Source of the DNA: Sulfurimonas aquatica
GTDB lineage: Bacteria > Campylobacterota > Campylobacteria > Campylobacterales > Sulfurimonadaceae
Direction: 5' to 3'
Assembly (NCBI RefSeq): GCF_017357825.1
Contig: NZ_CP046072.1
Span: 558,001 to 622,000 of the forward strand
Length of the DNA stretch: 64,000 nt
In this document: in pieces, positions 5,132-34,364 of the stretch
Layout: the number at the start of each line of letters is the position of its first letter
Numbering within the stretch: position 1 is the first letter of the stretch
Notes under the pieces: model-generated
Told to the model about the DNA's origin: nothing
The model's input: only the letters and a program-made list of their open reading frames with translations
The model's database searches: none
Translations under genes and position numbers: made by a program

Positions 5132-5470
5132 ATGAATAATTTATTAAAAACGGTATTAGCAAGCGCATTGATACTTGCGGTAGGTTCAACAGTTGCATCA
5201 GCAGATGCTAAAAAAGGTCAGAAATATTACCTTAAAAAACTAAAAGTATGTAAAAAAGACGGTCTTAAAAATGGTGCGGTTTTCGCAACTAAACATGATC
5301 GTAAATCGTGGGAAGGGCTAAAGTCTTCTGGTAAGTTAATGGATGAATTCAAATCTATTTGTCCAAGTGGCGTTAAGAAAATGAAAAAGATGAAAGAAAA
5401 AGACATTACTAACCTGTATGATTTCGTTTGGAAGTATGCATCAGATGGTGAAGTTCCATCTTGTGGTTAA
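5132..5470 (+). CDS. Small periplasmic three-cysteine protein, sox-associated (paralogue at 34013)
   Basis: The 112-residue precursor has a Sec signal peptide (cleavage after ASA, near residue 24) and a very basic mature part of 88 residues beginning DAKKGQKYYL. It has three cysteines (KVCKKDG, SICPSG and the terminal PSCG) but no CXXCH, so it cannot attach haem c in the usual way. The pattern of a KGQKYY start, a central Trp and a C-terminal IT-YDFVWKYAS helix resembles a class I cytochrome c fold that lost its haem motif; this is inference. AAAGGAA precedes the ATG. It lies between the cytochrome and soxY. The second copy at 34013-34351 is identical at 81 of 88 mature positions. Function unknown. 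Confidence 0.85.
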   Translation: MNNLLKTVLASALILAVGSTVASADAKKGQKYYLKKLKVCKKDGLKNGAVFATKHDRKSWEGLKSSGKLMDEFKSICPSGVKKMKKMKEKDITNLYDFVWKYASDGEVPSCG

Positions 5471-5502
5471 TAAAGTAATTATAAAAAAATAAAGGAAATA
5501 TT

Positions 5503-10799: not shown

Positions 10800-11168
10800 T
10801 TAGTCGTCATCTTCATTCTGGGCTAGCTCTTCACGTATCTCATCCATGTCAAGGTTTTTTACATGTGCTATCATATCGCCAAACTTATCTTCAGGCAACA
10901 TTCCTCCAGTATTAAGTAAAGTAACGCCGTCTCTAACAACCATTAAGGTTGGGACTGCACGTACATTGTACTTTAACGCTAGTGCTTGTTGCTCTTCAGT
11001 ATTTACTTTAGCGAAGAGTACATCGGGGTAAGCCTCAGCTACTTTTTCAAAAATTGGTGCAAATTTTTTACATGGACCACACCACTCTGCCCAAAAGTCG
11101 ATAATTACAATGTCGTTATTTTCAAGAGTTTCATCAAAAGTCTCTTGTGTTAAATCTATAGATGCCAT
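10800..11168 (-). CDS. Thioredoxin (extended C terminus)
   Basis: The 122-residue thioredoxin-fold protein has the classical active site WAEWCGPC with Cys30 and Cys33, the buried cis-proline region AVPTLMVV and the KVNTEEQ segment. It reduces disulfides in the cytoplasm, since it has no signal peptide. About 12-15 acidic residues are added at the C terminus (ELAQNEDDD) compared with E. coli TrxA. A paralogue with the same length, active-site position and MDEIRE/MDKVRE end lies at 25842-26204. It is divergent from a tetR gene; TTAGGAATATGAAAT precedes the ATG. Whether it is the main thioredoxin of the cell cannot be told here. Confidence 0.93.
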   Translation of the reverse strand: MASIDLTQETFDETLENNDIVIIDFWAEWCGPCKKFAPIFEKVAEAYPDVLFAKVNTEEQQALALKYNVRAVPTLMVVRDGVTLLNTGGMLPEDKFGDMIAHVKNLDMDEIREELAQNEDDD

Positions 11169-21773: not shown

Positions 21774-24062
21774 ATGATAAGATTTAATAATATTTGGAAA
21801 GTATTTTGGATACTAAGCCTGGGGGCAGTATTTTTATTTATTTTACTTCTGTACTTAAACTATAAAAATATTGAAAATAAATATCATCTAGAAATAGAAC
21901 ACTATGCTGATATTATCTCAAAATCAGTTCAAGCTAACTTTTTACAAAAAGAAACAGTTTTAAGTGTTCTTGGTGATAAGCTTATGGCTAATGACACCTA
22001 CAAGAATGAAAAACTTAGTGCAAAAATATTAAACACTCTAATACAAGAAAATCCTTCCATAGTCGATTTTAATTTAGCAGATACTAAGGGTAATATCCTT
22101 CTTAAAACCTCAAGTATTAATCTTAAAAATCGATTTAATATATTAAAAAACGAACTTACATCGGTAAACTTTCAAGAGGCACTTAAGTCTAAACAAATGA
22201 TTGTTTCAAGAGGCTACTTATCTTCAGAACTAAAACAATGGGTGATTCCTTTACGAAAGGCTATAAGGGATTCTTCTGGAAAGACTTTAGCAGTTGCAAC
22301 AGCCATTGTATTAAATTCTAAAAACGGTGGTTATTTTGACTACTTAAGACTCTCTAGTGCTAAAGCACTTCTTATTGTAAAAGACTACGATTCTCAACAT
22401 AAAATATATGTCTCGTATCATAGTGAAACAAGCGACAACTCAAGTCAAAGTATTTATGCTAATCCTCTTCCTGCTGAGATGCTAGCTAACATCAAAAATA
22501 AGTTAATCAGAAAAAATAGTAAAAAATTTAATACTATCGAAGAAACAGAAGAAGTTATTAGCATAGAACATGCCGATGCTTTTGGTATTGATAAGATTGC
22601 AGGTATAACATACAATAAAAGATATCATCTTTGGATATCTTTGGAGATTGAGAAAGAAAACGTATGGAATGAATTTACTAATATATTTTTTATAAACTTG
22701 GCTATATTTATCATTGGTTATAGTATCCTTATTTTTTTATTTAGAAATATAAATACATCTGAAGAAAGAAAAAACAGAGAACTTACTCATCAAGCACAAC
22801 ATGATATATTAACAAGTTTACCAAATCGAACTTATATGTATGCAGAAATAGAAGAATGGAAAAAGAAGCATCCCCATAAGTACTATGTAATGTATCTAGA
22901 CTTGGATAACTTTAAAAACATTAATGATAAATTTGGACATACTATAGGAGATGAGATTTTAGTTGAAGTTTCTCAAAGGTTAAAATCGTTTTTTACTAGT
23001 GAAGATATGCTTGTTAGACAAGGTGGAGATGAGTTTATAGTTTTTAAAGAGGGCATTGATGAAAAGGAACTTGAACAACAAGTTGCAGAATTAATTGTTT
23101 TAATATCTAAAATATACCATATAGACAATAAAGAGTTTAGAATAGGAATGAGTGTAGGAATAGCACAGTATCCTGTAGATGCTAGAAGTGTTGAGGAGCT
23201 TTTAAGTCTTTCAGATACAGCTATGTATGAAGCCAAAAAACGTAAAAATTCATACTGTCTTTTTTCAGAAAAAATGAGATACACAAATATGATAAATGCT
23301 GATATTGAAAGTGAGTTACGTGGAGCTATAGAAAATGATGAACTCTGGATGGTTTACCAGCCCCAAATTAACTCAGATGAAACACTCTATGGGGTTGAAG
23401 CTTTAATCAGATGGGAAAACAAGAAGCTCGGGTTTGTAGGACCAGATAAGTTTATAATCATTGCTGAAGAAACTGGTCTTATACGTGAACTGGGTAATTT
23501 TATTATGTTGCACTCCTTGAGAGAAATTAAAAGTATTCAAGAAGAGTTAGGTGTTTATTTTGAACTATCTATAAATATTTCTGTTATTCAACTAATGGAA
23601 GATGACTTTTTATCAAATTTATTAAAATACATAGAGCAGACTGGTTTTGAGAAGGGCTTGTTGACACTAGAAATAACAGAAAGCTTATCTATCAAAAATC
23701 TAGATTATGTACTACCTCTTTTAAGTGAAATCCGTGATAGCGGTATACAGATATCTTTAGATGATTTTGGTACAGGTTACTCTTCATTAAGCATTTTAAG
23801 AGACTTGCCTATTACTGAGTTGAAGATAGATAAGAGTTTTGTAGATAAGATACTCTATGATGAAAGTGAAAAAATATTAGTTGAAAGTATAATAAATATT
23901 GGCAAAAACTTTAACATGAAAATAGTTGCTGAAGGTGTTGAGAGTCAAGATCAAATTAAAGTTTTAAAGAATGCAAACTGTGATATATTTCAAGGCTATT
24001 ATTATTCTAAACCACTCACTAAGCATAATTTAATAGAATATTTAACAAAAATAGGTGGGTAG
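21774..24062 (+). CDS. Membrane sensor with GGDEF and EAL domains
   Basis: The 762-residue protein has two transmembrane helices (about 8-28 and 300-322) around a periplasmic sensor domain of Cache/CHASE type, then GGDEF (signature GGDEF at 417-421) and EAL (EAL at 542-544). No RxxD inhibitory site precedes the GGDEF signature. The EAL catalytic set looks complete: the Asn in SINIS, Glu in LEITES, the Asp pair in SLDDFGTGYSSL, Lys in LKIDKSF, Glu in VAEGVES and Gln in FQGYYYSKP. Both synthesis and breakdown of c-di-GMP are therefore possible. No clear Shine-Dalgarno precedes ATG 21774. The gene lies between the two REP-like repeats and directly next to an IS256 element, so it may have arrived by transfer. 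Confidence 0.9.
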   Translation: MIRFNNIWKVFWILSLGAVFLFILLLYLNYKNIENKYHLEIEHYADIISKSVQANFLQKETVLSVLGDKLMANDTYKNEKLSAKILNTLIQENPSIVDFNLADTKGNILLKTSSINLKNRFNILKNELTSVNFQEALKSKQMIVSRGYLSSELKQWVIPLRKAIRDSSGKTLAVATAIVLNSKNGGYFDYLRLSSAKALLIVKDYDSQHKIYVSYHSETSDNSSQSIYANPLPAEMLANIKNKLIRKNSKKFNTIEETEEVISIEHADAFGIDKIAGITYNKRYHLWISLEIEKENVWNEFTNIFFINLAIFIIGYSILIFLFRNINTSEERKNRELTHQAQHDILTSLPNRTYMYAEIEEWKKKHPHKYYVMYLDLDNFKNINDKFGHTIGDEILVEVSQRLKSFFTSEDMLVRQGGDEFIVFKEGIDEKELEQQVAELIVLISKIYHIDNKEFRIGMSVGIAQYPVDARSVEELLSLSDTAMYEAKKRKNSYCLFSEKMRYTNMINADIESELRGAIENDELWMVYQPQINSDETLYGVEALIRWENKKLGFVGPDKFIIIAEETGLIRELGNFIMLHSLREIKSIQEELGVYFELSINISVIQLMEDDFLSNLLKYIEQTGFEKGLLTLEITESLSIKNLDYVLPLLSEIRDSGIQISLDDFGTGYSSLSILRDLPITELKIDKSFVDKILYDESEKILVESIINIGKNFNMKIVAEGVESQDQIKVLKNANCDIFQGYYYSKPLTKHNLIEYLTKIGG

Positions 24063-24070
24063 TGTTCAAT

Positions 24071-25355
24071 AATCTGTGTCAGTATCGAGTAATTCCTAAA
24101 ATTGTATCATAAATTAAGAGCTTTATCTAATCTCCCCTCAAAGTGAATTGAGAGTTGAGAGATAGTTAAGCTCCAGTTTCTAACTGGCATAGTCCATTTT
24201 TTTGAGGCATTCTGGATGCCCATATAGAGTAATTTTAATAAGCTATTATCATTAGGGAAAGCACCTTTAGTCTTAGTCAGTGTTCTGAACTGTCGATGCA
24301 CAGACTCAATGATATTGGTGGTATAGATTACTTTTCTAATATCAGCTGGATATTTAAAATATACAGACAGATTATCCCATTTATTTCTCCAAGAAGTAAA
24401 AACGATTGGATATTTTTTACCCCATTTTTCTTCAAGCTTATCGAGTTCAATTTCAGCTTCTTCTTTCGTAAAGGCTTGATAGACTTTCTTCAACTCTTTT
24501 GCGAACTGCTTTTGATTAGCGGAACCTACATATTTAAGTGAATTTCGGATTTGATGAACAATACAGAGTTGTACTTCTGTGTCAGGATAGACTGAGTTTA
24601 TGGCTTCAGGAAAGCCTTTTAAACCATCAACGGAAGCGATGAGTATATCTTTAACACCACGATGAGATAAATCAGTAAGTACCTGTAGCCAGAACTTAGC
24701 ACCTTCACTCTCATTGAGATAGAGACCAAGTATCTCTTTCTTCCCATCAATGCCGACACCGAGAACGGTATAAAATGCTTTTGAGATATATCTTCCATCC
24801 TCTTTTACTTTATAGTGAATCGCATCTAAAAATATAAAAGGATATACTTCTTCAAGAGGACGAACTTTCCACTCTTGAAGCATAGGTATTATTTTATCTG
24901 TTACTGTACTGATTGCACCCTTAGAAAAGCCTACACCGTAAATATCTTCGATAAGCTTTGCTATTTGAGAGTAGCTGTTACCATGAGAGTAAAGAGCAAG
25001 TATTTTATCTTCTATCTCACCTGACATAGTTCGTTGATTTTTCTTTACAATCTCAGGCTCAAAACTACCACTACGGTCTCTTGGAACATCAAGTTCAAAT
25101 TCACCATGTTCACTTTTCATAGTTTTAGTGGCATAGCCATTTTTACGGTTCTTTGAGATATCTTGTGTTAAATGGGAATCTATTTCTGCGGAGAGAGCAG
25201 CTTCTGTAAGTTGCTTTATTAAAGAGCTTAATGCTCCATCTTTACCACTGATACTCTTACCAGCCTTTATATCACGAGCAAATTGCTCTGCATCTATTTC
25301 TATCTTCATCTGTGTGTCCTTGAGTAATTGTTATTTTACCCGATTGACACAGATT
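24071..25355 (-). mobile_element. IS256-family insertion sequence
   Basis: The element of about 1285 bases is bounded by inverted repeats with the core AATCTGTGTCA at 24071-24081 and its complement at 25345-25355; the similarity continues inward with a two-base gap (ATCGAGTAA against ATCGGGTAA). It contains one intact transposase gene. No matching 8-9 bp target duplication is visible outside the ends, so either the exact ends differ by a few bases or one flank was changed by later recombination. Confidence 0.88.
24107..25309 (-). CDS. IS256/Mutator-family transposase
   Basis: The 400-residue DDE transposase has the family pattern: first Asp in FIFLDAIHYKV, second Asp in IASVDGLKGFPEAI, the C-x2-H motif in LCIVHQIRNSLKYV and the Glu in TTNIIESVHRQFR. 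The frame has no interruption and the length is normal, so the enzyme is probably active. It fills nearly the whole element. Near-consensus family features make the call secure. Confidence 0.97.
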   Translation of the reverse strand: MKIEIDAEQFARDIKAGKSISGKDGALSSLIKQLTEAALSAEIDSHLTQDISKNRKNGYATKTMKSEHGEFELDVPRDRSGSFEPEIVKKNQRTMSGEIEDKILALYSHGNSYSQIAKLIEDIYGVGFSKGAISTVTDKIIPMLQEWKVRPLEEVYPFIFLDAIHYKVKEDGRYISKAFYTVLGVGIDGKKEILGLYLNESEGAKFWLQVLTDLSHRGVKDILIASVDGLKGFPEAINSVYPDTEVQLCIVHQIRNSLKYVGSANQKQFAKELKKVYQAFTKEEAEIELDKLEEKWGKKYPIVFTSWRNKWDNLSVYFKYPADIRKVIYTTNIIESVHRQFRTLTKTKGAFPNDNSLLKLLYMGIQNASKKWTMPVRNWSLTISQLSIHFEGRLDKALNL

Positions 25356-25400
25356 TTTAAACGGTCCCAATAGGTGTCAGTTAATCACTATTACTTTTTA

Positions 25401-25421
25401 ACTTTAGGGGTCTGACCCCAT
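25401..25421 (+). repeat. REP-like palindrome, right copy of the 21-bp repeat
   Basis: It is identical to 21621-21641 and in the same orientation, about 3.8 kb away. Together the two copies enclose the GGDEF-EAL gene and the IS256 element. The remaining bases up to 25551 carry no gene. Confidence 0.75.
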
Positions 25422-25551
25422 TTGGTTACGTTTCTTACAAGGTGATAACAAAACATCTCTTTCTTACTATCTAAGTTACTAGAAATACACTCCAGGAAAT
25501 AAAGGGATGGGTGTTTGTGTATCGGCGGTCCCCTTTTCTTCGAAATAGTAT

Positions 25552-25829
25552 TTACACAGAAAACTTAATAACATGCATGTGCTGTTTTGAGTATTTACTT
25601 ACATCAAACAATAATCTGCCTTTTTCCTCAATAAGCCAAATTACCTGTACTTTATTTGGGATTTTAACATGTTCAAAACTTTTTTCTATATCTCCATCTG
25701 TAGCACATATTATCATATCAGGTATATCACGACTTGATTGTTCTAATAAGGCCATAAAGCCTGGTTTCATTATGGTTCCACCACTACCTTGTCTCTTTAT
25801 GAACTTGTCTCGATATCCAAACTTTTCTA
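25552..25829 (-). repeat. Duplicated 3' end of the vWA gene
   Basis: These 278 bases match 26256-26533 at a constant offset of 704 bases, with few mismatches and no gaps. The copy lies on the far side of the second thioredoxin gene. Confidence 0.92.
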
Positions 25830-25845
25830 AATTTATTTCTCTCAC
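25552..25845 (-). pseudogene. C-terminal vWA fragment, still in frame and coupled to thioredoxin
   Basis: A GTG at 25845 opens 97 codons, and its GTGA overlaps the stop of the thioredoxin gene, so it could be translated by coupling. Beyond the first six residues it is almost identical to the last 92 residues of the vWA protein at 26256-27830. It keeps the TDGD segment and the C-terminal end but lacks the DxSxS metal site and all upstream domains. It is best read as a duplication remnant; a stable dominant-negative fragment is possible but not shown. Confidence 0.8.
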
Positions 25846-26204
25846 TCTTCATTGTTATCTAAATCTTCGCGAACCTTATCCATATCAAGGCACCTGACAT
25901 GCGTAATAAGTTCATAAATCGCGGCCTCTGTCAAAGTTCCTTCATGATTAATAACAATAATACCATCTCTCATAATCATTACAGTAGGAACTGAGATAAC
26001 CCCATAATGTTGGGCGATAACAGACTGATCCTCTGTGTCAATTTTAGCAAAAACTACGTCCGAGTGATGCTCCGATGACTCTTCAAATATCGGGGCAAAC
26101 TTTTGACAAGGTCCACACCACTCTGCCCAAAAGTCAATTATCACGATTTCGTTATTATCCAGAACTTCATTAAAATTTTTAGTTGTTAAATCTATATAAG
26201 CCAT
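25842..26204 (-). CDS. Thioredoxin, last intact gene of the MoxR-vWA operon
   Basis: The 120-residue thioredoxin has WAEWCGPC with Cys30 and Cys33, the cis-Pro region SVPTVMIM and an acidic end. It is clearly paralogous to the thioredoxin at 10800-11168 but diverged through the middle (ESSEHHSDVVFAKI against EKVAEAYPDVLFAKV). AAAGGATAGACT precedes the ATG. It starts 51 bases after the vWA gene, and the copied vWA 3' end follows it. The duplication suggests it may have entered the operon with a recombination event. Its place with MoxR and vWA proteins suggests redox control or client handling, which is inference. Confidence 0.92.
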   Translation of the reverse strand: MAYIDLTTKNFNEVLDNNEIVIIDFWAEWCGPCQKFAPIFEESSEHHSDVVFAKIDTEDQSVIAQHYGVISVPTVMIMRDGIIVINHEGTLTEAAIYELITHVRCLDMDKVREDLDNNEE

Positions 26205-26255
26205 AGTCTATCCTTTATTCTTAATTAGCGTATGATTTGACGCATTGTTTTTGTC

Positions 26256-27830
26256 TTACACAGAAAACATAATAACATGCATCTGCTGTTTTGAGTATTT
26301 ACTTACATCAAACAATAATCTGCCTTTTTCCTCAATAAGCCAAATTACCTGTACTTTATTTGGGATTTTAACATGTTCAAAACTTTTTTCTATATCTCCA
26401 TCTGTAGCACATATTATCATATCAGGTATATCACGACTTGATTGTTCTAATAAGGCCTTAAAACCTGGTTCCATTATGGTTCCACCACTACCTTGTCTCT
26501 TTATGAACTTGTCTCGAAATCCAAACTTTTCTATGTTTTTTACCTCGGTGTCAACTTGCACCAGGGTAACACTCTTAATAGAATATCTTCTCTGGATGGC
26601 TTGGACTTCAGACATCAAAGAAGCAAGAAGTTTGTCATCAACAGAACCTGACACATCAAGTACAACGGCTAGTTTAGGTTGCTTTGTGTAGCTATATCCA
26701 TATAAGTCTAAATCATCTTGGAAAATGGGATGTTGTCTCGACTTATTTGGTTCTCTGTAGCGTGTAGAATTATTTAAGGAGTTTCGCATCTTTTTGTTAA
26801 GTATCTTTTTCCAATCTTTGTGTGAGTTCTTTTTTTTAATGTTACTTAACGCCCCAGTTGCAACACCAGGTGTAAAACCTCTTGCAAAGTCTGTTGAATC
26901 ATGTATCATCTCATTTAATGTGCTATCCATAAAAGAGTTTAATACATTATCATTAAGTTCAACAGCTTCTTGAAGCTGTTGACCATACTCATGGTTATCC
27001 ATCTTACACTCACCATTTTTCAAGGCTTCTAAGGTTTTATGAGATAAAGATTTTGACTCTGTACTTATCTCATCTTTTTTTTGGGATGATTCACTCTTTT
27101 CATCTGTGTCTTGTGCATCATCTTCTTGGCCATTGCTTAAGGGGTTACTGTTGTCATCTTTGTCTGAGGAAGTATCTGATGGTATATCTATCTCATCATG
27201 AGAGCTATTATCTAAGTCATTGTTAGATGATTCATTATTGTCTTGCGCTTCTTTAGAAGAACCTTCTTTTATAGCTTCTTGTATCAGCTCTACATAATAT
27301 TCAAACTCTCTACCAACCTCATAAGTTTCGATTTGGTACTTTTGAAAAAGAGACTGATAAAAAAGTGTTGCAATAGGCGAATCTTTATAGCTACCAGTAC
27401 GAGGTAGGTCTTTAATATAAGGAACCTCTCTACATCCATTAATTACTATATCTTTTGCTGTTTCAATCGCTTCTTTATTTATGCTGTTGTCGTAGTTTCC
27501 TCGAGCAAAGTGATGGTTAATTATATGTCCCGCACTATGTTTAAGTATGGCAATGATTTGGTCTTTATGAATGACTCCAAGTATCACTGGATTTACGACA
27601 ATAACAAAATTTTTCCCATTAAAATAAACAGATGAAACAAATGATTCATCAAAGTGAAATTCATATTCACACCTGCTTAGAAAATTTGCATACCAAAGCA
27701 ACTCATTTGTATTAGAAGCTATCATAGAAATAATCATCTCTTTAAATAGTGTTTTCCAACTACTATCAGGATTAGCAATGATAGACTCAATGGTTTTCAT
27801 AGAGTAGAGGTAGTCTTGATTACTGTTCAA
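26256..27830 (-). CDS. DUF2201-like protein with vWA domain and degenerate HExxH
   Basis: The 524-residue protein has three parts. The N-terminal part (about 1-180) resembles the putative metallopeptidase domain of DUF2201 proteins, but the helix reads KHSAGHIINHH, so the motif at residues 98-102 is HSAGH instead of HExxH and lacks the catalytic Glu. The middle (about 190-285) is a low-complexity stretch rich in Ser, Asp and Glu. The C-terminal part is a vWA domain with an intact MIDAS start DVSGS (Asp392, Ser394, Ser396), a Thr region and TDGD. MoxR ATPases act with such vWA proteins in metal insertion or complex assembly. It overlaps the ankyrin gene by 11 bases. Confidence 0.85.
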   Translation of the reverse strand: MNSNQDYLYSMKTIESIIANPDSSWKTLFKEMIISMIASNTNELLWYANFLSRCEYEFHFDESFVSSVYFNGKNFVIVVNPVILGVIHKDQIIAILKHSAGHIINHHFARGNYDNSINKEAIETAKDIVINGCREVPYIKDLPRTGSYKDSPIATLFYQSLFQKYQIETYEVGREFEYYVELIQEAIKEGSSKEAQDNNESSNNDLDNSSHDEIDIPSDTSSDKDDNSNPLSNGQEDDAQDTDEKSESSQKKDEISTESKSLSHKTLEALKNGECKMDNHEYGQQLQEAVELNDNVLNSFMDSTLNEMIHDSTDFARGFTPGVATGALSNIKKKNSHKDWKKILNKKMRNSLNNSTRYREPNKSRQHPIFQDDLDLYGYSYTKQPKLAVVLDVSGSVDDKLLASLMSEVQAIQRRYSIKSVTLVQVDTEVKNIEKFGFRDKFIKRQGSGGTIMEPGFKALLEQSSRDIPDMIICATDGDIEKSFEHVKIPNKVQVIWLIEEKGRLLFDVSKYSKQQMHVIMFSV

Positions 27831-29286
27831 GTGATGCAGCCTCAGACATTTTTATAACATAAGGCAGTGTTGAAAACTCTGCAATTTTTTCTAGGACATC
27901 TTCTTTTTTTTTGCCTTCTCGCCTTGGGTAAACTTCTGTTACTAAATAAATAGTGTAATTAAAGATATTTCGAATTTTTTTTTCCCACATATCAGAAAAG
28001 GAGGGGTATTTTACCCTGTACTCTAGTGATAAGTTTCTTATACTGGTTATATCAAGACCTAATTCTATGAGGTAGCTTATGCTTTCATAGGCATGGTGAG
28101 CATTCATTGCCTTATTTAGGTGCTCATTATACGACCCGTTAAACTCTATACCTGAGGCATGAAGATATTTTAGTATTTCTACATGATTTTCATTTATGAT
28201 TTCGACAATAACATCAGTGCCCAATAGGTCTAGATTTGCACCATTATTAACGGCCTGTCGTAAGTCTTTAAGATTTCCTTTAGTGGCAGAAACTTTCATC
28301 TTAGCAAAGTGTTGTGCTTGTTTAGAAACACCTTTGTCAATAAAATACTTTTGCAAGGAGTCATTTTCATAGCTATAGGCTATTTCATAGGCATATTCTA
28401 AATCATCCATATGGCTGAGAACACTCAAAATTTTAGTATAGTTAAAACATACTGCGTTTGCAATGATTATCTTATTAAATATGATATTTGAGTTTAAAAT
28501 ATATTCGATTATCTCGTCGTTAACGTTTACATCTTTATTGTCTTGTGTTTTTGAGTAGTATTGACTAAGTACAGAATTAAGCGATTCATTTTTGTTTACC
28601 CCTATTAAAACCGAAAACTTCATCATGTTCAAATTATTAGTGTCTAATCCCATTCTAAACAAACGTGATTTGTCTGATTCATTCCAAGATTTAAACCCTT
28701 CTATAAAGTTAGGTCTTTCTAGATAATACTCAATGATAAATTGTAATAGATCATGCCTTTTATTCTTTGTCTCTCCATGCCAGTTTATTGGAGAGGAACC
28801 CATCCATTTGGTTAAAATTTTGTTTGTATCGGCATGTATATTAAAACCATTTTCAATTAACAATTGTAATATTTCTACACTAGCAATCGTTAAAATAGAA
28901 TATAAAAACAATGAAGCTGGTTTTACACCTTGCTCAATTGCTTGCTTTGCGAGGTCTAAATCACCTATGTTAATGGCGGCGAGAAGCATTCCCCTAAGAA
29001 GTTTCTCATCCTTACACGCTTCCACGTTTGGAATTAAAAGATGCAAATATTTTTTGTCTTTTTCTATTGATTTTTGAAGCACATACTCTTTTACTGTAGC
29101 GCCAGACTCTAAGAGTAGATTAATAATTTGGTCATTGCCTGTTTGTACAGCTGTATCTAAGGCATTCTTCGGAAGGTGTATATTTAAGTTTACATCAGCA
29201 CCAAGAGCTAGCCACCGTTTGACCTCGTCTATATTGGCATTTTCACACGCTTGCATGAGATTTTCATGAAGGTAAGATGGTGTCAT
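27820..29286 (-). CDS. Ankyrin-repeat protein of the MoxR-vWA operon
   Basis: The 488-residue soluble protein has ankyrin-type repeats: clear ones near the N terminus (NANIDEVKRWLALGADVNLNI and the TAVQTGNDQIINLLLESGAT unit), degenerate units across the middle, and another good set near 345-430 (TKGNLKDLRQAVNNGANLDL, NHVEILKYLHASGIEF). It lacks a signal peptide or enzymatic motif. One base separates it from the moxR stop, and it overlaps the vWA start, so the three are made together. It probably acts as substrate adaptor or scaffold for the ATPase-vWA pair. Confidence 0.82.
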   Translation of the reverse strand: MTPSYLHENLMQACENANIDEVKRWLALGADVNLNIHLPKNALDTAVQTGNDQIINLLLESGATVKEYVLQKSIEKDKKYLHLLIPNVEACKDEKLLRGMLLAAINIGDLDLAKQAIEQGVKPASLFLYSILTIASVEILQLLIENGFNIHADTNKILTKWMGSSPINWHGETKNKRHDLLQFIIEYYLERPNFIEGFKSWNESDKSRLFRMGLDTNNLNMMKFSVLIGVNKNESLNSVLSQYYSKTQDNKDVNVNDEIIEYILNSNIIFNKIIIANAVCFNYTKILSVLSHMDDLEYAYEIAYSYENDSLQKYFIDKGVSKQAQHFAKMKVSATKGNLKDLRQAVNNGANLDLLGTDVIVEIINENHVEILKYLHASGIEFNGSYNEHLNKAMNAHHAYESISYLIELGLDITSIRNLSLEYRVKYPSFSDMWEKKIRNIFNYTIYLVTEVYPRREGKKKEDVLEKIAEFSTLPYVIKMSEAASLEQ

Positions 29287-29287
29287 A

Positions 29288-30520
29288 TTATTGTCCTCGA
29301 AGGAGTTCTGCTACATAGGGATTGGTTTTATATATATGTTTCACCAAACCATTAGATACTCTCTCATTAACCCCTAAGTTATATTTTTCATCTACCTTAT
29401 CTATATAAGTTTGAGCCTCATCGATACCAACTTTTATTGACATAATGTGTTCCTCAGAACTTATATTAAGCATAATTGCAAATATATCATCGCTTACACT
29501 CTTAGCTTCTAGGGCGAAGAAGCAAGAGCTAAGAATATTCATCTGAGTTACGGGTTGAGCACGATTCAATTGGGATTGTATTGACTCTATAAGTTCATCA
29601 TAATGAGAAGTATCATTCTTTTCATTTACTAAATATGCATTGAAGTCTTTTTCTTTATGTAAGTGTAAAAATTCTGTAAGTTGCTCTTGAATTTTGCTAA
29701 ATACCAAAACTTTAGAGCTCTTAAGATAGTTAACAAGTTTAGGTGTAACATCTTTACTAGATACGGTAGATAAAAGGCTTAGTAAGTTATTATCACTTGT
29801 ACTGTTTTTCTCATAAGAGTATAGTAGTCTAGAAATCATATCCCATCTTCTTGGATCCATTCCTGGATCACTCATATCATCCTCATTGCTTTGAAGTAAA
29901 AAGTCAGAACGATTATTATCAAGGTAGCTAATGATTAAGGGGTGAACCCTTTGTCTATTGTTTTTCTTATCATACAAAAGAGCATAACTCTTTTTCCATG
30001 CCTCAAGCGTAGCTTTAACCTTTACGATGGCCATTCGACTTAGCATAGCCTTGTCAAGTGACTCAACAAGGTAATTACCGTCATCTACGGGATTACCAGC
30101 ACAGACAATAAACAAAGACTCTGGTAATTTAATGCTATCAGATCCAAACTCTCTTTTAAGTATTAGGTTCATTAAACTTTGAAGATTTTGTGGCTCCGCA
30201 CGGTTGAGCTCATCTATAAAAAGAAGTGTTTCTTTATTGTTTTTATCATTGTGAAGTATTGTTGATACCCAGTTAGGTATAGACTTCTTAAATACAGTAA
30301 ATTTTTGATCATTAAAGCCTGCTACAATATCTGTTGAAACTGTCCTACCGTAAAACTCTATATGATCTAAAGAAGCCACTCCCATAATGATACAATCCAT
30401 CTCTTTTGACGCAGCATACTGCTCTATAATCGATGTCTTACCTATCCCAGACTCACCCTCTAAATAGGGGACAATTTGGGATTCTTTGTATATATCTAAA
30501 TGTGAAAAACTAATGTTCAT
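29288..30520 (-). CDS. MoxR-like AAA+ ATPase
   Basis: The 410-residue ATPase has Walker A GESGIGKT (residues 22-29), Walker B LLFIDE (99-104), a sensor 1-like region IVCAGNP and a sensor 2-like DPRRWDMISR. It belongs near the CbbQ/NorQ/MoxR group, whose members remodel or metallate partner complexes together with a vWA protein. It is the first gene of the four-gene operon. The C-terminal 170 residues are helical and not typical of the shortest MoxR proteins. No metal enzyme gene sits next to it, so the client is unknown. Confidence 0.88.
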   Translation of the reverse strand: MNISFSHLDIYKESQIVPYLEGESGIGKTSIIEQYAASKEMDCIIMGVASLDHIEFYGRTVSTDIVAGFNDQKFTVFKKSIPNWVSTILHNDKNNKETLLFIDELNRAEPQNLQSLMNLILKREFGSDSIKLPESLFIVCAGNPVDDGNYLVESLDKAMLSRMAIVKVKATLEAWKKSYALLYDKKNNRQRVHPLIISYLDNNRSDFLLQSNEDDMSDPGMDPRRWDMISRLLYSYEKNSTSDNNLLSLLSTVSSKDVTPKLVNYLKSSKVLVFSKIQEQLTEFLHLHKEKDFNAYLVNEKNDTSHYDELIESIQSQLNRAQPVTQMNILSSCFFALEAKSVSDDIFAIMLNISSEEHIMSIKVGIDEAQTYIDKVDEKYNLGVNERVSNGLVKHIYKTNPYVAELLRGQ

Positions 30521-30672
30521 CTATGTTCCTCTATCTTTTATGCTATTTTATTAAAGTGCACCTTTAAAAGCCCTATACTAGCTCAGCGATAAATATTAGT
30601 GGAAATTAAATGAAGAATGAAGTAAATAAAAATCTATGTATTTTGAAGATTTAAAGTAGTAATATAAGTGGC

Positions 30673-30704
30673 AGTAAATAGGCAGTTTAATCTGCCTGTT
30701 TACT
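30673..30704 (-). terminator. Terminator after serS
   Basis: AGTAAATAGGCAG (30673-30685) pairs with CTGCCTGTTTACT (30692-30704) across a six-base loop, with one G-U position. It lies 15 bases past the serS stop on the minus strand and separates it from the moxR operon. The promoter of moxR should lie in the 150 bases that follow; I see no clear consensus there. Confidence 0.7.
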
Positions 30705-30718
30705 AGAAAAAGAGAAGA

Positions 30719-31969
30719 TTACATCCCTAAATAAGGTTTTAAAACTTCAGGAATATCTATACTTCCATCTTCGTTTTGATTGTTTTCCATGATAGCTACA
30801 AGCGTACGACCGACAGCAAGAGAACTACCGTTTAGCGTATTTACAAAGCTGTTTTTCTTTCCATCTTTGTATCTTATTTTTGCGCGACGAGCTTGGAAAT
30901 CTCTTGTGTTAGAGATTGAGGAGATTTCTCTGTATGTTGCTTGTCCTGGTAGCCAAACTTCGATGTCTGTAGTATATGCAGCACCAAATCCTAGATCACC
31001 AGTACAAAGGTTTACAAGGCGATGAGGTAACTCTAACGCAGTTAAGATGTCTGACGCACATGTTACCATCTCCTCAAATATTTTCTCACTCTCTTCTGGT
31101 TTAACTATAGCCACAAGCTCAACTTTGTGAAACTGGTGTTGTCTTATCATGCCACGGGTGTCACGTCCTGCCGCGCCTGCTTCTTTTCTAAAACATGACG
31201 TATAAGCAGTCATTTTTTTAGGAAGTTCATCTTCTGCTAAAATCTCATCTTGGTAAAGATTTGTTACTGGAACTTCAGCAGTTGGGATGAGAAAAAGCTC
31301 TTGCCCGTCCATCTTATATAAGTCGTCTTCAAACTTTGGAAGTTGACCAGTACCTTCTAGTGCAGTGCGATTAACAAGTGCTGGAACACTTACTTCATCA
31401 AAACCACGACTACGATTAAAGTCAAGCATGAAGTTTATGAGCGCACGTTCAAGTCTCGCCCCCATACCAAATGAAACGCTAAAACGCGAAGTAGCTAACT
31501 TAACGCCACGTTCAAAATCTATCCATCCATTTTGCTCTGCTAACTCCCAGTGCTCTTTTGGAGGGAAGCTAAACTCTTTTGGCGTTAAAACTTTCTTTAA
31601 CTCTATATTATCCTCTTCATCTTTGCCATCTGGAACAGAATCATCTGGCATATTTGGTACTGCCATAGCAAGACTCTCTAGTGCTTCAGTAGCAGTTCGT
31701 TGCACTTCTATAGCTTCTGCAACTTTTACTTTGTTCTCATCTACTCGAGCCTTAAGTTCTGCTATGTCTTTACCCTCGCGTTTATAAACGCCAAACTCTT
31801 TACTCATAGCATTTTGTGCAGCTTGAAGAGTCTCGTAAGCTACTTTAGCTACTTTTAGCTCTTCATTTTTTGCTTTAAGCTCTTCAAGAAGCTCTGTGCT
31901 CACACCTTTTCTTATAAGTTTCGCACTAACGCTTTGAAAATCTTTTTGGAGTAGTTTTAAATCAATCAT
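30719..31969 (-). CDS. serS: Seryl-tRNA synthetase
   Basis: The 416-residue class II synthetase has the N-terminal coiled-coil arm (about 30-105) that holds the long tRNA-Ser arm. The catalytic core follows, with motif 2 around [25 protein letters not shown] and motif 3 near [17 protein letters not shown]. It charges tRNA-Ser with serine. Length and ending (VLKPYLGM) are normal. The MetF-type gene lies 23 bases upstream in the same direction. Confidence 0.97.
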
Positions 31970-34012: not shown

Positions 34013-34351
34013 ATGAAAAAAACAACTTCGTTATTACTAGCTGCAATGGTAGCAGGATCAGTTTTCACTACAAGTGCAATGGCTGACGCTAAAAAAGGTC
34101 AAAAATACTACCTTAAAAAGTTAAAAGTTTGTAAAAAAGATGGTCTTAAAAACGGTGCTGTTTTCGCAACTAAGCATGATCGTAAGTCTTGGGAAGATTT
34201 AAAAGCTTCTGGAAAACTTATGGATGAGTGGAAGACAATCTGTCCAAGCGGTGCTAAAAAGTTCAAAAAAATGAAAGAAAAAGATATTACAAATGTATAT
34301 GACTTCGTTTGGAAATATGCTTCTGATGGTGAAGTTCCATCTTGTGGTTAA
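34013..34351 (+). CDS. Small periplasmic three-cysteine protein, stand-alone paralogue
   Basis: The 112-residue precursor has a Sec signal peptide (cleavage after AMA, near residue 24) unrelated in sequence to that of the copy at 5132-5470. The 88-residue mature parts are the same except for seven positions, including all three cysteines and the terminal GEVPSCG. AAAAGGAAATCTAA precedes the ATG. It stands alone, away from sox genes, between a serB pair and a terminator. The lack of CXXCH rules out normal haem c binding. Function unknown; high conservation of the mature part suggests a specific contact surface. Confidence 0.85.
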   Translation: MKKTTSLLLAAMVAGSVFTTSAMADAKKGQKYYLKKLKVCKKDGLKNGAVFATKHDRKSWEDLKASGKLMDEWKTICPSGAKKFKKMKEKDITNVYDFVWKYASDGEVPSCG

Positions 34352-34364
34352 TCTAAAACAACTT

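Follow-up and report, generated by a model that had tools for sequence, protein, structure and literature searches.

In a 64,000-nucleotide stretch of the Sulfurimonas aquatica genome (contig NZ_CP046072.1, positions 558,001 to 622,000; hereafter the window), a gene for an ATPase of MoxR type (moxR) is followed by genes for an ankyrin-repeat protein (ank), a protein with DUF2201 and von Willebrand factor A domains (DUF2201/vWA) and a thioredoxin (trx). Comparison with related genomes indicates that moxR, ank and DUF2201/vWA are one accessory unit of three genes, not four, and that this block has, to judge from its sequences, spread between Sulfurimonas species, at different chromosomal sites. 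It is a variant of the ternary kind of MoxR–vWA system, new in its ankyrin third component. On balance, we favour the view that it encodes a MoxR–vWA remodelling machine with the ankyrin protein as its client-recognition arm, a roaming accessory unit of conditional benefit for which conflict with mobile elements is our preferred guess.

A recurrent three-gene block

A sequence-only reading of this DNA had described a tightly packed operon of four genes. All four open reading frames (ORFs) are indeed present on one strand with exactly the packing given (a 1-nt gap between moxR and ank, an 11-nt overlap between ank and the vWA gene, and a 51-nt gap before trx), and Pfam backs each of them (AAA_5, E = 1.3e-7; Ank_2, 2.3e-9; DUF2201, 4.5e-14, with DUF2201_N, 1.9e-6; Thioredoxin, 6.4e-26). 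Searching genome contigs with the vWA protein placed the nearest related loci in Sulfurimonas (L003–L010). Together with the window and a divergent copy from genome G047 (L034), retrieved by a search of the genus, these make ten copies. The order moxR–ank–vWA and both exact junctions recur in 9/9 loci (the window and L003–L010), so that the packing is more than chance; the vWA gene starts with TTG in eight of these loci and with GTG in one. While the three genes form a fixed block, trx adjoins it in only three of the ten copies, so that a four-gene operon describes no more than a sub-group.

The 9 of 135 Sulfurimonas genomes in which ank was found (E up to 1e-20), the window's own counted, are also the 9 with a vWA protein of this type (E up to 1e-10). 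With the fixed junctions, this upholds the proposed pairing of MoxR with a vWA protein and makes the ankyrin protein a conserved third partner; in relatives ank is conserved and trx mostly is not. The block is absent from the remaining 126 genomes, and among the good genomes 5 of 79 carry it and 74 lack it. The DUF2201 family as such is not rare, with proteins of other types in 27 further Sulfurimonas genomes. Among 397 evenly sampled genomes of the phylum, a set without the other eight carriers, ank occurs only in the window's own genome. Coordinates are collected in Table 1.

Table 1. Positions of the block and adjoining features in the window.
Feature	Position	Strand	Description
moxR	29288–30520	minus	MoxR-type AAA+ ATPase, 410 aa
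ank	27820–29286	minus	Ankyrin-repeat solenoid protein, 488 aa
DUF2201/vWA	26256–27830	minus	524 aa, TTG start; N-terminal pseudo-metallopeptidase domain and C-terminal vWA domain
trx	25842–26204	minus	Thioredoxin, 120 aa; optional neighbour
97-aa ORF	25552–25845	minus	Copy of the vWA 3′ end, truncated; probable recombination scar
Leader 5′ of moxR	30521–30593	minus	Partly common to L003–L006, L008 and L010; not L007

Spread between species and insertion sites

At fourfold-degenerate sites, the cassette genes of seven genomes are 68–91% identical to those of the window, versus 38–52% for serS and metF in the same genomes, which argues for lateral spread. In the window the block lies behind serS; in the stretch fetched behind serS, 8/8 other carriers have other genes. 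Flanking ORFs are mostly unshared; their clustering revealed a single clear case of a common site (L008 and L010) and a few small genes in common. In L007 the block begins immediately past a fructose-bisphosphate aldolase stop codon. Mean ratios of nonsynonymous to synonymous substitution rates (dN/dS) are 0.29 for moxR, 0.33 for ank and 0.26 for the vWA gene, indicating proteins under purifying selection.

A leader of about 70 nt is common to other copies and, read by eye, abuts repetitive extragenic palindromic (REP)-like palindromes in several loci. An RNA element across the leader and the 5′ end of moxR was considered and rejected (fold z-score of 0.26). Separately, the first 90 moxR codons (window 30250–30520) vary less at third positions than those elsewhere in the gene (3.6–11.0% versus 9.2–18.0%, measured in 30-codon bins across eight copies). 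In L004 (9565–9789), the end of the vWA gene leads into a stretch like the 3′ end of a tRNA and then into a fragment resembling an integrase C-terminus by eye. The fragment has no Pfam match, and a tRNA attachment site at this right end was not confirmed, the 23-nt sequence occurring just once in G048.

Features of the three proteins

The MoxR sequence contains Walker A (GESGIGKT) and Walker B (LLFIDE) motifs and scores 32.1 bits with AAA_5 (cut-off 22); the motif columns are invariant across seven aligned copies, save for I26M in one. In the ankyrin protein, the best Pfam stretch covers residues 10–65, and matches at E up to 1 comprise ankyrin families and one weak DUF7628 match. Its AlphaFold2 model consists of helices only (mean predicted local distance difference test score (pLDDT) of 69.2), and the PDB matches listed by Foldseek are mostly ankyrin proteins and designed ankyrin repeat proteins (DARPins), with E down to 5.9e-7 at query TM-scores of only 0.16–0.29.

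The third protein scores 53.1 bits with DUF2201 (cut-off 26.4) and retains the residues of the metal-ion-dependent adhesion site (MIDAS; DVSGS, GGT and ATDGD); the commonest motifs of each aligned DUF2201 group preserve these residues. In 9/9 aligned copies the vWA domain sits at the very end of the protein, and no effector domain is fused C-terminally. The peptidase motif reads HSAGH instead of HExxH in 10/10 cassette copies, and the earlier label of pseudo-metallopeptidase is therefore apt.

Relatives in phages, plasmids and other families

Two PHROG families match MoxR and the vWA protein over most of their length: phrog_1297 (1.4e-44, residues 10–299) and phrog_1314 (2.2e-38, residues 27–502), respectively. 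A quick tree of vWA proteins puts the cassette in one group with an Arcobacter plasmid protein and two of eight phages, both large (Shimodaira–Hasegawa-like approximate likelihood-ratio test (SH-aLRT) support of 96, no bootstrap); the phages do not form one clade. The genes for MoxR and DUF2201 are neighbours in phages Pylas, BpSp, PB119, MTATph1, RHph_X2_28B and phiKp_21. This pairing is not universal, as At2 has a 134-aa ORF between the two and the stretches from phiKT1024 and pVa5 are without an adjoining partner gene. The phage-type pair, found in schitoviruses and large phages, resembles the block in that both proteins match these PHROG families, and differs from it in having no ankyrin gene and in keeping HExxH.

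This motif is intact in 8/8 chosen phage proteins and in one Arcobacter plasmid protein. In contrast, it occurs in 0/59 aligned DUF2201 proteins from further genomes of the phylum, a sample that is not wide (60 regions were chosen, not randomly, from a longer list, and a 280-aa ORF from L084 was left out); L096, L097 and L117 yielded no called DUF2201 ORF. This contrast, together with the absence of HExxH from all cassette copies, gives concrete form to the hypothesis of a peptidase that became a scaffold. The gene layout of the block recurs on the Arcobacter plasmid (AAA, 330-aa protein, DUF2201), with a middle protein unrelated to ank. No ank protein was found in phages (E up to 1e-3), plasmids (E up to 1e-6) or viral contigs, and searches of viral contigs with the vWA, ank and MoxR alignments returned no relative.

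Other repeat proteins accompany MoxR–DUF2201 genes elsewhere. In 5/5 loci from two other families of the order (L077–L081), an ORF of leucine-rich repeat (LRR) type, 391–761 aa long, lies directly upstream of MoxR; Pfam LRR_5 matches one of these at 8.9e-158, and the other four are 87–96% identical to it. Like the block, these operons join a repeat protein to MoxR and a DUF2201 protein without HExxH. They differ in that the repeat protein is a BspA-type LRR, not ankyrin, and stands upstream of MoxR, and their aligned parts are only about 25–29% identical to the window's proteins. In another class, a repeat protein of LRV type is often found upstream of MoxR: among 20 hand-chosen upstream proteins scanned at E up to 0.05, 11 match LRV_2 (best E 2.6e-10) and 7 match LRV (best 2.4e-4), and one, displayed in full, falls below the cut-off. 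A third MoxR–DUF2201 class, viewed by ORF sizes and order only, showed no repeat partner.

Comparison with described systems

The block conforms to the general MoxR–vWA pair, with an AAA+ protein bearing Walker A and B and a same-operon vWA protein bearing MIDAS in 9/9 loci. It also resembles the ternary conflict systems of Kaur et al. (VMAP, iSTAND, FtsH, beta-propeller, iSTAND2 and TERNS3), which likewise combine MoxR, a vWA protein and a dedicated third protein and have an accessory distribution. Statements on the literature refer here and below to the parts of each text that were available. The block differs from these systems in its ankyrin third protein, its order (MoxR, third protein, vWA), the lack of a vWA-fused effector and its DUF2201 N-terminal domain. 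Such systems are described mainly for multicellular bacteria (PMC7159879, PMC8195603). The words ankyrin, thioredoxin and Sulfurimonas are absent from PMC7159879; PMC8195603 mentions MoxR, vWA and ankyrin, and its available ankyrin passages concern other proteins. Going by titles and the first lines of abstracts, a literature search yielded no description of a moxR–ank–DUF2201/vWA unit.

With RavA–ViaA and NorQ–NorD, the block shares the general principle of a MoxR AAA+ protein working with a vWA co-chaperone. However, phmmer (E up to 0.01) matched the window MoxR to no PDB chain, and no client gene was seen beside the block. The LARA domain is specific to RavA. Unlike the metal-insertion chaperones CoxD–CoxE and NorQ–NorD, the block has a vWA protein that stays below the cut-off of the CoxE-type model (VWA_CoxE, 14.0 bits, cut-off 26.4), and no metal enzyme was seen among its shared neighbours. 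To our knowledge, the part that recognizes the client is not known for most MoxR–vWA machines. The candidate here is a separate, strictly co-inherited repeat protein, which would make an adaptor function testable by single-gene deletion.

Proposed function and alternatives

In the reading that we favour, MoxR would act as an ATP-driven ring, as is known of its family, and the vWA protein as its co-chaperone, holding the client through the MIDAS metal site; a MIDAS-based grip on clients has been argued for other MoxR–vWA pairs (PMC7159879). The ankyrin solenoid would pick the client, while the former metallopeptidase domain, without the catalytic glutamate of HExxH, could serve as a binding or scaffold domain, and ATP hydrolysis might then pull or remodel the client complex. 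For an accessory block that roams and is related to phage-type proteins, a benefit under certain conditions seems likely, and mobile-element conflict would be the simplest case. A more specific scenario is a mobile defence module, in which a phage-type MoxR–metallopeptidase pair had its peptidase defused (HExxH to HSAGH) and an ankyrin arm added, and now seizes and takes apart the protein complexes of phages or plasmids as they enter, perhaps the same assembly machines that it is itself related to. We regard this scenario as improbable.

Several points weigh against this favoured reading, its mobile-element part included. The interaction, the ATPase activity and the phenotype are all predictions from sequence, and the structure model of the vWA protein is poor (mean pLDDT of 41.6) and unfit for structure search. 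No toxic effector domain was found, and no PADLOC model matches MoxR, vWA or trx; in ank only the repeats match, to candidate model PDC-M72A (residues 10–67). Restriction-modification genes occur only in L010 among the flanks scanned with PADLOC (54 ORFs of at least 110 aa from L003–L010, with the window and G047 flanks left out; best 25 of 47 families). Nonsynonymous differences (pN) exceed synonymous ones (pS) in only one 40-codon window, within the length-variable linker of the vWA protein (codons 241–280, 0.073 versus 0.056), so that signs of an arms race or of fast evolution are scant. The G047 copy, which has two ank paralogues between moxR and the vWA gene, carries a frameshifted moxR and is an exception to the lateral spread, its cassette being as diverged at fourfold sites (35–46%) as core genes are, a sign of old divergence. 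The tree of MoxR proteins has very long branches and gives no resolution. In favour of phage-type kinship, the window vWA protein scores 138.5 bits with a profile of eight phage DUF2201 proteins, versus 50.2 bits with the largest class of Campylobacterota proteins (42 proteins) and at most 43.3 bits with three smaller classes, and the window MoxR scores 141.2 bits with a profile from seven phages, versus 48.6–88.1 bits with other class profiles; but the profile phages were picked from matches to the window's own proteins, a bias toward the phage profile that does not affect the PHROG matches, and the other class profiles are for the most part narrow.

The block could instead, in a view close to that of the sequence-only reading, encode a chaperone that matures a cellular enzyme or loads it with metal, as with NorQ/NorD, CoxD/CoxE and RavA/ViaA, the ankyrin protein choosing the client and thioredoxin providing redox control. 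Several studied MoxR–vWA pairs do act on cellular enzymes (PMC7159879; NorQ/NorD, PMC9976466; RavA–ViaA, PMC10585395 and PMC9489729), and purifying selection on all three genes agrees with such a role. Yet 126 of the 135 Sulfurimonas genomes manage without the block, and the ORFs shared between flanks include no enzyme gene bar two near the L008/L010 site, the rhodanese gene described below and a transporter-type ORF (L003 and the window). Given also that VWA_CoxE stays below its cut-off, that trx mostly does not adjoin and that MoxR is without a PDB match, we consider an enzyme chaperone rather unlikely; metal insertion, raised in the sequence-only reading, is likewise unsupported, and no metal enzyme was seen in the shared flanking ORFs. 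It is distinctly unlikely, in our view, that the block came from a phage or plasmid as a cargo module, was kept because it helped the mobile element (for example, in virion or complex assembly) and is now chromosomal: ank was not found in the phage, plasmid and viral contig searches, and dN/dS values of 0.26–0.33 are not those of decaying genes. This origin would nonetheless explain the matches of MoxR and vWA to phrog_1297 and phrog_1314 and the layout of the Arcobacter plasmid. In jumbo phages, a MoxR–vWA pair with an N-terminal metallopeptidase has been noted and proposed to aid virion assembly (PMC7824862); the available text of papers on N4-type phages holds nothing on the function of gp24/gp25 (PMC4193335, PMC10579305). 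A NikA-like ORF of a mobilization family lies upstream of the block in L006 (53–463; 31.7 bits, cut-off 27), and a similar small ORF lies downstream of it in L010 (11843–12217).

The presence of the block at several unrelated sites, with a leader common to most copies, would also fit a selfish unit that moves by its own products. Pfam gives no recombinase or transposase match for any of the three proteins, a search of window positions 23900–31000 found no repeat pair bracketing the block, and no target duplication was noticed at the borders, inspected by eye and not systematically across loci; we hold such a unit to be highly improbable.

A second PADLOC scan, of 10 of the 54 flanking ORFs, placed the methylase and restriction matches in L010. 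The DolB and PDC-M37B matches fall on a long AAA protein of L004 (ClpA type by eye), a caspase match lies in L003, and one of three mad2 matches is to a methyltransferase in L010. A defence island was rejected: among the matches listed for the L003–L010 flanks, nothing is common between loci except mad2, with weak scores. The caspase-domain protein of L003 (3955–4974; Peptidase_C14, 2.3e-14) is encoded divergently beside the block at this locus only.

Thioredoxin and the vWA tail copy

The thioredoxin has a WCGPC motif and scores 102.7 bits with TIGR01068 (cut-off 96.8). Its gene directly follows the block in the window, L003 and L007 only; L008, which is unreadable in this respect with a contig that stops 69 nt past the vWA gene, is counted among the other seven copies. 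In G048 the trx orthologue (94%) lies on a different contig, and the 6 kb fetched there contain no vWA sequence. Together with the vWA tail copy behind trx in the window, these observations leave the suggested redox control unsupported, and thioredoxin as a core part of a four-gene operon was rejected on its adjacency. It is probably a later neighbour in one sub-group. A second thioredoxin gene in the window (10800–11168) encodes a protein 56% identical to the one beside the block; every one of the 9 carrier genomes has homologues at 54–62% to the query, as do 8 others of the 135.

Behind trx, a repeat that had been missed in the sequence-only reading (25552–25837, 286 nt) is 97% identical to the vWA 3′ end (26256–26541). 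Position 25552, the lower limit of the interval in that reading, is where the fifth ORF, the 97-aa one of Table 1, terminates. The two copies differ at 9 of 286 sites, five states being private to the tail and one to the full copy. At these nine sites, with G047 left out, the tail agrees with L004 at four, and the full copy agrees with L004 at five and with L006 at eight; one state is common to the tail and L004 alone. The 11 bases past the tail's stop match those past the vWA stop in L006, not those past the full copy. The tail copy is probably the scar of a recombination between a vWA–trx donor and a vWA allele already resident, in which one junction was homologous and the other illegitimate, and this event probably also brought in the thioredoxin. 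Homology-facilitated illegitimate recombination is a described process of this kind (PMC3240628). Simple tandem duplication with later decay is less favoured, as we lean toward recombination with a second allele.

The same pattern of full gene, insert and tail was observed at serS in G106 (L162, contig 4, 1033–4679), where a full serS is followed by a 641-aa gene, after which the serS 3′ end is repeated twice, over 25 and about 80 codons.

Other features of the window

By the look of its translated ORFs, the rest of the window is ordinary chromosome; the genome comprises 2.85 Mb in two contigs. Beyond the vWA tail copy lies an insertion sequence (24064–25362) with a Mutator-type transposase (24107–25309; Pfam), present in the genome as eight identical full-length copies, three of them on the second contig. 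Promoter-like sites number 18 versus 24.1 expected, and terminator-like sites 5 versus 2.0 expected, one of the latter being a REP-like palindrome (25407–25419).

Four of the ten copies have a gene with a rhodanese domain no more than 3 kb from the block (L003, 2179–2547; L006, 701–1078; L009, 3702–4121; L010, 10746–11114). A close homologue (at least 61% identity) is present in 12 of the 135 genomes, seven of them carriers, which may be a clade effect. In the window, a 271-nt repeat of 83% identity (5201–5471 and 34082–34352, 29 kb apart) sits within two small ORFs (5132–5470 and 34013–34351).

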